In this document: piece after piece, positions 20,308-24,696 of the stretch
Layout: each line of letters begins with the position of its first letter
How positions within the stretch are numbered: the stretch's first letter is position 1
Assembly (NCBI GenBank): GCA_011391405.1
Contig: JAABQQ010000260.1
Coordinates: forward strand, 1 to 64,000
Direction of reading: 5' to 3'
Length of the DNA stretch: 64,000 bases
Origin: Gammaproteobacteria bacterium
GTDB taxonomy: Bacteria > Pseudomonadota > Gammaproteobacteria > Steroidobacterales > Steroidobacteraceae
Program-made: the position numbers and the translations under genes
Notes under the pieces: generated by a model
What the model was told of the DNA's origin: nothing
What the model saw: the letters and a program-made list of their open reading frames with translations, nothing else
Database searches by the model: none

Positions 20308-20452
20308 GAGGAAGGTCAGGAAGGTCAGGAAGGTCAGGAAGGTCAGGAAGGACAGGACGGTGAGGAAGGTGAGGAGGTCGGACGCGCGGTTCCTTCTGGC
20401 CCTTCCTGTCCTTCCTGTCCTTCCTGACCTTCCTCCCCTTCCTCTACTCCCT
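20308..20452. repeat. AGGAAGG/CCTTCCT hairpin-type repeat element, second copy
   Basis: Five or so direct units of AGGAAGGTC, then a middle part near 20370-20395, then about five reverse-complement units (TCCTTCCTG). The layout is the same as at 1371-1494: two opposed arrays of a 9-bp unit, placed between genes. It separates the SRAP gene start from the stop of the ABC permease gene and overlaps the last codons of the latter. Confidence 0.8.
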
Positions 20453-21289
20453 GATGCCCGTGCCCTTGTTCATCAGCCACACGCAGGCTGCGAACAGGAC
20501 CACCACCGACAAGGCCATGATCGCGAACGAAAAGCCGATGTCGACATCGGATTGCCCGAGAAAGCCGTAACGGAAAGCGCTCACCATGTAGAGGATCGGG
20601 TTCGCTTTCGAGACCGCCTGCGCCCACTCGGGCAGCATCTGGATCGAGTAGAAGACGCCGCCGAGGTACGTCATCGGCGTCAGGATGAACGTCGGCACGA
20701 ACGTGATCTGGTCGAAGTTCCTGGCGAAGACGGCGTTGACGAAGCCCCCGAGCGCGAACACGATCGAGGTGAGCAGCACGGCCGCGATCACCACGAACAG
20801 GTGCTCGACGTGCAGGCGCGTGAAAAACAGCGCGATGATCGTCACGATCAGTCCGACCAGCAATCCGCGCAGCATGCCGCCCGCGACGTAGCCCAGCACG
20901 ATCAGCCAGCTGGGCAGCGGCGAGACGAGCAGTTCCTCGATGTGCCGGCCGAACTTGGCGCCGAAGAACGACGACACCACGTTGCCGTAACTGTTGGTGA
21001 TCACGGACATCATGATCAGGCCCGGGGCGATGTACTGCAGGTACGTGAAGCCTCCCATCTGCCCGATCCGCCCGCCGATCAGATTGCCGAAGATGATGAA
21101 GTAAAGAGTCGCCGTGATCACGGGCGGCACCAGCGTCTGGCCCCAGATGCGCATGATGCGGCTGAATTCGCGGATCACGATCGTCGCGAAACCGACCCGG
21201 CGCGCGCGACGCATGTTGACGGCCGTCGTCACTGCGGCGTGACTGCCAGGGACGGCGCCTGGCGTGCGACTCGGCGGCACGGTGCTCAT
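20444..21289 (-). CDS. yadH: ABC-2 type permease (YadH-like)
   Basis: 281 residues with about six transmembrane helices and the ABC-2 family pattern (VIREFSRIMRIWGQTLVPPVI, YLQYIAPGLIMMSV, FGRHIEELLVSPLPSW, PMTYLGGVFYSIQMLPEWAQ). It is the membrane subunit of an exporter whose ATPase is the overlapping upstream gene. YadGH substrates are not established. The 3' end runs into the 20308 repeat element. Confidence 0.9.
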   Translation of the reverse strand: MSTVPPSRTPGAVPGSHAAVTTAVNMRRARRVGFATIVIREFSRIMRIWGQTLVPPVITATLYFIIFGNLIGGRIGQMGGFTYLQYIAPGLIMMSVITNSYGNVVSSFFGAKFGRHIEELLVSPLPSWLIVLGYVAGGMLRGLLVGLIVTIIALFFTRLHVEHLFVVIAAVLLTSIVFALGGFVNAVFARNFDQITFVPTFILTPMTYLGGVFYSIQMLPEWAQAVSKANPILYMVSAFRYGFLGQSDVDIGFSFAIMALSVVVLFAACVWLMNKGTGIRE

Positions 21290-22248
21290 GTGCCCGCCTG
21301 CACAGTCGGTGGTGCGGTCGGCTGGCCACTGCCGACGTCGCGGCCTTCGACGAGGCGCATGAAGAGTTCTTCGAGGCGGTTGGACTTGTTGCGCATGCTC
21401 ACGACTTCACCGCCCGCAGCGGACAAGGCGACGAAGATCTCGTTCAGGTTCTGCTCCTTGTTGACCTCGACCTCGAGCGTCGTCTCGTCCGGCGCCGTCA
21501 CGCGATATCCGGGCAGCGACAGAGTCCTGCGCAGTGGTCCGCGCAGGTTGAGCACGAAGGTCTCCGTCTGCAGCTTGCGCAGGACCGTCGACATGCGGTC
21601 GTTCTCGATGATGCGGCCTTCGTCGATGATCGCGATGTGGCGGCAGAGGTTCTCTGCCTCCTCGAGGTAGTGCGTCGTCAGGATGATCGTGGTGCCCTGC
21701 TCGTTGATCCGGCGCAGGAATTCCCACATCGAACGGCGCACCTCGATGTCCACGCCTGCGGTCGGCTCGTCGAGGATCAGCAGCTGCGGCTCGTGGATCA
21801 GCGCGCGCGCGATCATGAGCCGGCGCTTCATGCCGCCCGACAGGGACCGCGAAATCGTCTCACGCTTGTCCCACAGCTGCAGCTGGTTGAGCCAGTACTC
21901 CATCCGCTCGCGCGCGACGGGGCGCGGGATGCCGTAGAAGCCGGCCTGGTTCAGCAGGATCGTCGAGACTTTCTCGAACTGGTTGAAGTTGATTTCCTGC
22001 GGCACGACACCGAGGCAGGATTTTGCTGCTTCGAGCTCGGAGTCGATGCTGTGCCCGAATACCGTCACCGTGCCGCTCGACTTGTTGACGAGCGACGAGA
22101 CGATGCCGATCGCAGTCGACTTGCCCGCACCGTTCGGCCCGAGCAGCGCGAAAAAATCGCCCTCCTCCACGTCGAGGTCGATGCCTTTCAAGGCCTGGAC
22201 CCCATTGTTGTACGTCTTGCAAAGCTGGCGCAGCGACAAGGCCTTCAT
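21286..22248 (-). CDS. yadG: ABC transporter ATP-binding protein (YadG-like)
   Basis: 320 residues. Walker A is GPNGAGKS, the signature is SLSGGMKRRLMIARAL, Walker B is LLILDEPTAGVD, and the switch histidine is in TTHYLEEAE. A C-terminal extension of about 80 residues is typical of ABC-2 exporters of the YadG/NodI group. The stop overlaps the permease start by 4 bp. The ATG at 22248 gives the family N-terminus MKALSLRQLCKTY; the reading frame stays open further upstream but that part does not look like this family. Confidence 0.92.
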   Translation of the reverse strand: MKALSLRQLCKTYNNGVQALKGIDLDVEEGDFFALLGPNGAGKSTAIGIVSSLVNKSSGTVTVFGHSIDSELEAAKSCLGVVPQEINFNQFEKVSTILLNQAGFYGIPRPVARERMEYWLNQLQLWDKRETISRSLSGGMKRRLMIARALIHEPQLLILDEPTAGVDIEVRRSMWEFLRRINEQGTTIILTTHYLEEAENLCRHIAIIDEGRIIENDRMSTVLRKLQTETFVLNLRGPLRRTLSLPGYRVTAPDETTLEVEVNKEQNLNEIFVALSAAGGEVVSMRNKSNRLEELFMRLVEGRDVGSGQPTAPPTVQAGT

Positions 22249-22301
22249 GGCGGGACGGACGTTCACGGGAGGGGAGCGAAGGGTAATGTGCGGGCACCTC
22301 G

Positions 22302-23018
22302 TCAGCAAGGAACGTCGGTGTCGTCCGCGGGTCCCCTGCGGTGAGTCGGGCGTGCGCGACGCGCAGGACCACCGCGCGCGATGACCGGATCGCGCTCGCA
22401 GTGCCCGAGCAGGCACAACCCCGCCGAATAGGCCCAGTTCAAGTCGGCCTGCACCGTGCCTGCCGCAGCTTCGGCCAGCAAGCTCCAGTAACGCGAGTGC
22501 CCGGGCCATCGCGGACGCACCAACCCGGGCCACGAGGCAAGCCGAAACGAATCGGACGGCGTCAGCGCGGACAGGCGCGCCTCGGATGTCGACCCCAGCC
22601 CGAACGCAATGCGTGACGAGAACGGCAGGCTCTCGGCAAGCCTGCGCGCCACGCCGAGCGCGACCAGGCCGAACGAACGACGGGTCTCACCCCGCGCGCG
22701 GTCGGCGAAGTCCGCATCGGTGTCCGCGACGGACTCGAGACGCCAGGGCGGAGCCTCGTCATCCCGTGGCAGTGCGAGCTCAAAAAGCGAGATCGGGCTG
22801 CACGCGGCACGTTCCCGGGCCTCCGCCGGGACTTCGGCCAGTCGCCTCACGGTTGCCGTTGGTAACTGGAACCAGCAGTCGACCCCGTGTGCGGGGTCGA
22901 GGGCGTGGGCCAGGAACAGGCGATTGAGGTCCGCAATATCCCGGCGAACAGCCGAATTAAGCAGATTGCCCTGGTGCAGCCAGGCGGAATTGAACGGCGT
23001 CAGTCTCGATTCAGTCAT
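22302..23018 (-). CDS. FlhD-like protein, apparently two FlhD-like units in one chain
   Basis: 238 residues. Residues about 20-82 follow the FlhD pattern: DIADLNRLFLAHAL, then WFQLP, an LAEVPAEARERAA helix, and a hydrophobic strand ISLFELAL. E. coli FlhD has DINLSYLLLAQRL, FRLGI, LAALTLPQMVKLAE, CHFRF in the same order. Residues about 117-171 repeat the pattern weakly (LVALGVARRLAES, RIAFGLG, ARLSALTPSDSFRLASW, LVRPRW), suggesting an internal duplication, i.e. a fused FlhD dimer. GGAG precedes the ATG. It is divergent from the FlhC-like gene across a 108-bp region with two inverted repeats. The FlhD assignment is my own alignment by eye. Confidence 0.55.
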   Translation of the reverse strand: MTESRLTPFNSAWLHQGNLLNSAVRRDIADLNRLFLAHALDPAHGVDCWFQLPTATVRRLAEVPAEARERAACSPISLFELALPRDDEAPPWRLESVADTDADFADRARGETRRSFGLVALGVARRLAESLPFSSRIAFGLGSTSEARLSALTPSDSFRLASWPGLVRPRWPGHSRYWSLLAEAAAGTVQADLNWAYSAGLCLLGHCERDPVIARGGPARRARPTHRRGPADDTDVPC

Positions 23019-23031
23019 GGTCAATACTCCG

Positions 23032-23055
23032 TATATGGTCCAAACGGACCATATA
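23032..23055. promoter_or_regulatory. Inverted repeat 1 (TATATGGTCC-N4-GGACCATATA)
   Basis: A perfect 10-bp inverted repeat with a 4-bp centre, 14 bp upstream of the FlhD-like start. It shares the core TATGGTC/GACCATA with the second repeat at 23074-23093. The two centres (23043.5 and 23083.5) are exactly 40 bp apart, so a regulator could bind both on one face of the helix. It is probably an operator for the divergent pair. Confidence 0.75.
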
Positions 23056-23073
23056 TGGATATAGAATCTCATG

Positions 23074-23093
23074 TATGGTCTGGATAGACCATA
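23074..23093. promoter_or_regulatory. Inverted repeat 2 (TATGGTCT-N4-AGACCATA)
   Basis: A perfect 8-bp inverted repeat with a 4-bp centre, 33 bp upstream of the FlhC-like start, and a close copy of the repeat at 23032-23055. Between the repeats lies the AT-rich sequence GGATATAGAAT, which could hold a -10 element. Confidence 0.75.
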
Positions 23094-23126: not shown

Positions 23127-23672
23127 ATGAGAATCACGGACAGCCGCTATGATCGCGATCGCCTGCGGCTGGCGGTCGCCCACCGGATGATCGCGCTGGA
23201 AGCCCGCACCCGCACCATCCGGGTTGCGACACAGCTTTCGGACGACAGGATCCGACGCATGTATCGCGACTATTTTGCCGCGATCGGCGGCAACCTCGTG
23301 CGGCGCCGGCGCGGTAAATCGCCGCGGCAGATGTCGTATTTCCGGCGTTCGCTCGAGCACGAACAGCAGGCGGCGCTGCTGGGCTCCCTGCTGCGGCTCT
23401 GCAGCCTGCTGCAACGGTATCCCAACGGCTTCCGGCCGGCGCTGGAGGACATCGGCTGCTTCTGCGATGCGTACGAGACCTACCGGGGACTCTGGTCCGA
23501 AGGTCACATCTCGTTCGAGCACGCGTGGCACCTTTGGCAGGTTTTCTGCCACAACGACGAGTTCGTGCTGTCGAACTGCCCCGACTGCGAATCCCTCTGG
23601 CTGCAGGACACACTGGAGATCCTCCCGTACAACTGTTCGGCATGCAGGCGAGGTCTGCCGGCCCGCACATGA
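23127..23672 (+). CDS. FlhC-like transcriptional regulator
   Basis: 181 residues. The N-terminal helix pattern IALEARTRTIRVATQLSDDRIRRMYR parallels FlhC ([24 protein letters not shown]). The KSPRQMSYF and ISFEHAWHLWQVF segments align with PPKGMLPFS and the RAWTLVRF region. The C-terminal zinc site is intact: C151-x2-C154 and C170-x2-C173, matching the four Cys of FlhC with nearly the same spacing. Canonical FlhC binds DNA with FlhD as FlhD4C2 to switch on flagellar genes. Here no flagellar gene is nearby, and the partner-like gene is divergent rather than co-transcribed. GGGAG lies 8 bp before the ATG. Confidence 0.8.
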   Translation: MRITDSRYDRDRLRLAVAHRMIALEARTRTIRVATQLSDDRIRRMYRDYFAAIGGNLVRRRRGKSPRQMSYFRRSLEHEQQAALLGSLLRLCSLLQRYPNGFRPALEDIGCFCDAYETYRGLWSEGHISFEHAWHLWQVFCHNDEFVLSNCPDCESLWLQDTLEILPYNCSACRRGLPART

Positions 23673-23733: not shown

Positions 23734-24696
23734 GTGCCTGCACCACCCAACGTCTTCGCTGGACCGTACCTGGATCGCATTGCGCACCTGCGCAAGGACG
23801 AGGCGTTCGTGGCCGATGCCCTGCGCGGCGCCAGGGCCCGCATCGTGCCCGTGCACGAGTCGCGCATCCTAGTGCAGCGCGGCCCTGACGGTTGGTCGGC
23901 GGTATTTGCAACGTCAATGGATCTCTTGAGGCTGCCTGCGCTCGCCGCCGAACCCGTGCTGCTGGGCCGTTTCGACGATTGCGTCTATTTCGCCGCCGAA
24001 GTGGCAAGCCCGGAACCGGTGCAGGCGCTGTTCGCGACAGGCTCGGTCAGGTTCGAGGATCTCCGCATGGCCGGCGGACAGTTGCCGGACCAGCAGGCCG
24101 GCGTGCTCGCGTATGCGCGCGCCATGCTCTACTGGCGCAGTCGTCACCGTAACTGTGGCGCGTGCGGTGCGCCAACTCGCGTCGCCAGCGCCGGCCACGT
24201 CATGAAGTGCACGAACGACGCCTGCGGCATCGATCATTTTCCGCGCCTGGATCCCGCCATCATCGTGCTGGCCACGGATGGCGAGCGGGCATTGCTCGGC
24301 CGCCAGGCCTCGTGGCCAGCCGGGCGGTATTCGACGATCGCGGGCTTCGTCGAACCCGGCGAGAGCCTGGAAGACGCCGTGGCCCGCGAAGTGCTGGAAG
24401 AGACCGGCGTGACGGTGCTCGAATCGACCTACCACTCGTCGCAACCGTGGCCGTTCCCGTCGTCGCTGATGATCGGCTTTACGGCGTTCGCCGCTGCGGA
24501 GCCGGTTCCACGCGCGGACGAGGAACTCGAGGACGTCCGCTGGTTCACTCGCCAGGAAATCGCCGCAGGGTTTCCCGGACTGCCACCGCCGCAGTCCGTT
24601 TCGTTCCGACTGATCGAACACTGGTACGACTCCGGTTCGAACCTGCCCCTGGCGCAGACACCCGGCATCACGCTCTGGGGCTCGCGGCGCGGCTGA
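23734..24696 (+). CDS. nudC: NAD+/NADH diphosphatase (NudC; RNA deNADding enzyme)
   Basis: 320 residues. NudC hydrolyses NAD(H) to NMN and AMP and removes NAD caps from RNA. An N-terminal domain is followed by a zinc ribbon (CGACG ... KCTNDAC) near residues 140-165. The Nudix box GFVEPGESLEDAVAREVLEETGV is complete. The family-specific SQPWPFPSSLMIGF motif just after it is also present. I place the start at GTG 23734. A TAAACT hexamer near 23698 could be its -10, giving a short leader without a clear Shine-Dalgarno. Confidence 0.93.
   Translation: MPAPPNVFAGPYLDRIAHLRKDEAFVADALRGARARIVPVHESRILVQRGPDGWSAVFATSMDLLRLPALAAEPVLLGRFDDCVYFAAEVASPEPVQALFATGSVRFEDLRMAGGQLPDQQAGVLAYARAMLYWRSRHRNCGACGAPTRVASAGHVMKCTNDACGIDHFPRLDPAIIVLATDGERALLGRQASWPAGRYSTIAGFVEPGESLEDAVAREVLEETGVTVLESTYHSSQPWPFPSSLMIGFTAFAAAEPVPRADEELEDVRWFTRQEIAAGFPGLPPPQSVSFRLIEHWYDSGSNLPLAQTPGITLWGSRRG

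Follow-up and report, generated by a model that had tools for sequence, protein, structure and literature searches.

What is the role of two near-identical inverted repeats that lie between an FlhD-like and an FlhC-like gene, and which regulator do they serve? The window (the whole stretch of 64,000 nucleotides that was analyzed) contains the following features around them.

20444 to 22251, minus strand: genes on the FlhD-like side, presumably encoding a NodJ/NodI-type ABC-2 permease and ATPase
22302 to 23018, minus strand: FlhD-like gene, 238 amino acids, probable tandem duplication of the FlhD unit, with profile and fold matches
23032 to 23055, no strand: candidate operator palindrome 1, TATATGGTCC-AAAC-GGACCATATA, centre 23043.5
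23060 to 23065, plus strand: TATAGA between the palindromes, probable FlhC-like promoter -10 element
23074 to 23093 (core), no strand: candidate operator palindrome 2, TATGGTCT-GGAT-AGACCATA, centre 23083.5
23127 to 23672, plus strand: FlhC-like gene, 181 amino acids, with an N-terminal helix-turn-helix (HTH) and a C-terminal CxxC...CxxC zinc site; PF05280 match at E=3.3e-6
23734 to 24696, plus strand: gene on the FlhC-like side, presumably a NudC-type Nudix hydrolase

Our analysis suggests, with a probability of roughly 0.7, that the palindromes form a shared double autoregulatory operator for a non-flagellar FlhDC-family complex encoded by the flanking genes. In this genus, the double operator is probably repressing.

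Two inverted repeats are indeed present within 23032-23093, as the preliminary description claimed, and their centres are exactly 40 bp apart. Its placement of the repeats between the FlhD-like and FlhC-like genes is correct in location but not in framing, since the genes are divergent and do not constitute one operon; the repeats thus occupy a shared bidirectional regulatory region. When up to three mismatches were allowed, TATGGTCY-N4-RGACCATA matched only palindromes 1 and 2 in the 64-kb window. Shuffled sequences yielded a mean of 0.05 sites under the same conditions, and two or more sites occurred in 0 of 100 shuffles.

Comparison of orthologous loci revealed that the motif is kept and the spacing fixed. 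Both palindromes are found at exactly 40 bp in all seven same-genus loci in which the region is present, and the distance from palindrome 2 to the start codon varies between 42 and 55 bp. The 64-bp block that comprises site 1, TATAGA, and site 2 is 86-88% conserved among these loci, compared to 55% upstream and 73% downstream. Within this block, the palindrome arms are kept, the N4 spacers are variable, and TATAGA is invariant in the seven sequences.

The arrangement extends beyond the genus. Three further families of the order include genera with palindrome pairs of diverged letters, spaced 41 bp apart: TTTGGTCC palindromes in three genomes of genus g29, a TTGCKCC-type pair in two genomes of g33 (the second site is weaker in one of them), and a weaker pair in g45. 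Genera of four families therefore have two like sites, 40 or 41 bp apart, adjoining the promoter region of the regulator genes themselves, and many other genera contain a single palindrome with a TGG-N10-CCA core in the intergenic region. Across 80 loci, N4 palindromes with 7/8 arm matches occurred in 31 (4.2 expected from shuffles) and those with 8/8 arm matches in 13 (0.2 expected); controls with odd-centred palindromes gave 6-9 over the same loci. By the arm-match criterion, roughly half of the 80 loci contain the gene pair and no clear palindrome.

Both flanking genes encode remote relatives of FlhC and FlhD, as determined by profile and structure comparison. For the FlhC-like protein, the label given in the preliminary description is upheld by PF05280 (27.4 bits; cut-off 27), by the family profile, and by the fold. 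PF05280 was matched by all 33 FlhC-like relatives at E<=0.1. The family profile detected Cupriavidus FlhC (8j56_C, E=4.7e-11) and E. coli FlhC (2avu_E, E=8e-8) in the PDB, and a Foldseek search with the predicted model returned both 8j56 (E=2e-6) and 2avu at E<=1e-4. An HTH and a four-cysteine zinc site are present: C151, C154, and C170 are invariant and C173 is nearly so in 33 FlhC-like sequences. The score against the NCBIfam FlhC equivalog, which describes the flagellar regulator, is 26.8 bits and lies far below the cut-off of 216.

The FlhD-like label likewise withstood family profile and fold comparison. A Pfam search with the FlhD-like sequence of the window alone gave no hit at the PF05247 gathering score, so that its homology to FlhD is visible only in profile and fold; 13 of 33 relatives matched PF05247 (best E=6e-7). 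A profile built from the 33 relatives finds FlhD chains, one of them best in the second half of the protein and another in the first half. The two halves align with each other in register (E=0.0013, with a probability of only 18%). The AlphaFold model (pLDDT 85) consists of two helical units, each with a terminal short strand, and its nine best PDB matches are all FlhD or FlhDC, with weak Foldseek E values (0.4-1) and probabilities of 0.98-1.0. Taken together, the matches in both halves, the in-register alignment, the two-unit model, and the structural matches argue with moderate confidence that the FlhD-like protein probably consists of a tandem of FlhD units. Such a partner would alter the usual FlhD4C2 stoichiometry.

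The present pair shares with FlhDC of E. coli and Cupriavidus (FlhD4C2) a remote homology of both subunits, the same folds, the zinc-site cysteines, heteromeric partner genes, and, presumably, two-fold symmetric target DNA. The E. coli FlhDC box is AAYGSSNNAAATAGCG-N10-12-CGCTATTTNNSSCRTT, two 16-bp repeats over 42-44 bp (PMC9962212), which differs in both letters and layout from the TATGGTCC-N4-GGACCATA repeated at 40-41 bp described here. Moreover, flhDC is an operon, whereas the genes studied here are divergent, FlhD is probably doubled, and no tie to flagella is apparent; in Salmonella, feedback on flhDC acts via RflM (PMC3946378). AcaCD of IncA/C plasmids and SetCD of SXT/R391 elements are FlhDC-family complexes, each of which recognizes a distinct, unrelated DNA motif (PMC4207636, PMC4344509). 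They resemble the present pair in being non-flagellar complexes with motifs of their own, but they activate conjugation from mobile elements and act at many sites, whereas the present pair is chromosomal and syntenic. In the genome paper of Dechloromonas aromatica, homologues of FlhC and FlhD are listed, some of them in duplicate, that possibly belong to the same family; they are annotated as flagellar regulators, and the passages on them mention neither an operator nor a tandem FlhD (PMC2907700). Within the largely open-access literature that was searched, no study of this regulator group was found beyond the Dechloromonas paper.

These observations suggest a model in which the complex would consist of two FlhC-like chains together with FlhD-like chains that probably each carry two fused FlhD units. 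The half-site (A/T)TGGTC(C) would be read by the HTH of the FlhC-like protein, and each palindrome would accommodate one two-fold-symmetric unit. Centres that are 40-41 bp apart correspond to four helical turns, which would align the two bound units along one side of the helix and make cooperative binding probable. The comparisons establish the sites, with their conservation, spacing, and rarity elsewhere, and the families to which both proteins belong; binding by the encoded complex, cooperativity, repression, and a mirror-image promoter are inferred.

How such a complex would act depends on the position of its sites relative to the promoters. TATAGA is probably the -10 element of the FlhC-like promoter; a scan of the region with the sigma-70 consensus found no full promoter. 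With TATAGA as -10, site 1 would fall at about -28 and overlie the -35 region; site 2, at about +12, would overlie the point where transcription begins, and a mirror-image layout may serve the FlhD-like gene. Such an arrangement suggests that both genes are negatively autoregulated. Genus g33 has another layout: both sites are shifted upstream, away from the FlhC-like start codon, and no obvious -10 element lies between them, so repression cannot be general.

The same complex might instead bind the double site for positive feedback on the divergent promoters. Known FlhDC-family complexes are mainly activators, FlhDC, AcaCD, and SetCD among them. Sites for SetCD and AcaCD overlap the -35 element or immediately precede it (PMC4344509, PMC4207636), and the long upstream distance of both g33 sites from the FlhC-like start codon is also consistent with activation. 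In the genus of the window, however, site 2 would be placed downstream of the TATAGA-implied transcription start, where binding usually blocks. We therefore consider activation rather unlikely, though it is the alternative that fares best.

Further evidence on the identity of the binding protein comes from the rarity of the motif. A genome scan revealed that the core motif is nearly restricted to the FlhD-like/FlhC-like locus and is not common at random. The 3.54-Mb genome contains one further place within two mismatches of TATGGTCY-N4-RGACCATA. Counterparts of this extra site in sister genomes have unlike contexts with no common setting, and one falls within a coding frame; the extra site thus looks like a chance occurrence. 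A regulon search with the strict motif returned the locus itself and scattered single matches in dissimilar contexts, one of which falls within an alanyl-tRNA-synthetase-like frame, and nothing more. Searches with relaxed motifs in genera g29 and g11 found almost nothing beyond their own locus. The operator is therefore almost locus-specific in all three genera searched (g1, g29, and g11), as expected of a local autoregulator. A one-mismatch site (L003:1501-1520; G000:C239:10293) precedes a small lipoprotein-like gene by 30 bp, in a context that is not conserved.

Palindromes of 16-24 bp with this symmetry would fit many dimeric repressors, and the pair could in principle be controlled by an unrelated regulator encoded elsewhere, such as one of the GntR, MarR, or TetR type. 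Covariation that might tie the operator to the FlhC-like protein is not independent of ancestry: the residue that follows TIRx (W or non-W) agrees with the operator type (GGTC or non-GGTC) in 41 of 48 cases, a concordance that reflects approximately one independent change through shared ancestry and was for this reason left out of the evidence. Against an unrelated regulator stand the near-confinement of the site to its own intergenic region in the three genera searched and the divergence of operator letters along with the pair between genera while the arrangement stays. In addition, the pair represents the only regulator genes that constantly adjoin the site across the order. Together with the confinement of the sites, this makes autoregulation the simplest reading, and we judge control by an unrelated regulator to be improbable.

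The repeats might also act not as DNA sites but at the RNA level, as 5'-leader hairpins involved in attenuation or transcript stability. Predicted folds are strong (-22.8 and -15.5 kcal/mol), and a two-sided change from C-G to T-A preserves pairing. Hairpins would not require the TGGTC half-site letters that are common to both repeats and to other families, nor a constant spacing of 40-41 bp. Because site 1 precedes the -10-like element, the FlhC-like transcript would not include it, and no U-run or terminator was found at the region. These features render the RNA explanation highly improbable. Chance palindromes, for which the A+T content of the spacer (richer than that of the rest of the window) might be invoked, are refuted by conservation within the genus, recurrence in other families, and the 0 of 100 shuffles with two sites.

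The synteny of the divergent pair across the order also supports the double-operator reading. An FlhC-like relative was detected in 86 of 98 genomes and 39 of 45 genera of the order, which in GTDB terms is probably Burkholderiales. When 185 genomes were sampled evenly across the class, none outside the order contained one, save for two weak matches in one genome, and a plasmid collection gave no match to the pair. Most of about 40 genera have the divergent pair in a similar neighbourhood, flanked at one end by the NodIJ-type transporter and at the other by NudC followed by TamA/TamB; most relatives retain the transporter and NudC-type genes next to the pair. Loss of the pair in one genome (G005) is uninformative, since the neighbouring permease is missing there too.

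The distribution of flagellar genes argues against a flagellar role as the main one. The pair occurs both with and without flagellin genes, which were found in 49 of 96 genomes (G000-G097) and not in the window's own genome (78% complete). No strong canonical FlhC was detected in any of the 96, the 49 with flagellin genes included, so flagella in these genomes must have another controller. Given this pattern, control of flagella is unlikely to be the principal function of the pair.

It is thus conceivable, at about even odds in our estimation, that the pair represents an order-wide, vertically kept, non-flagellar regulator of the FlhDC type with a doubled FlhD and a new operator of its own (TGG-N10-CCA, ancestrally paired at 40-41 bp). 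Such a regulator would constitute a self-controlled switch whose operator letters drift while its geometry persists. Were this borne out, the FlhDC fold, so far associated chiefly with flagella and conjugation, would gain a third role that is chromosomal and deeply conserved across approximately forty genera. The recognition site could then be read from the regulator's own promoter, which would provide an entry point to a little-known regulator, and the diverged operators would offer a natural series from which to work out DNA recognition by FlhC-type proteins. Some loci (L160-L167 and L170) contain a second, more divergent FlhC-like/FlhD-like pair that lacks clear palindromes; the two genes are mostly divergent in orientation and are co-directional in L162.
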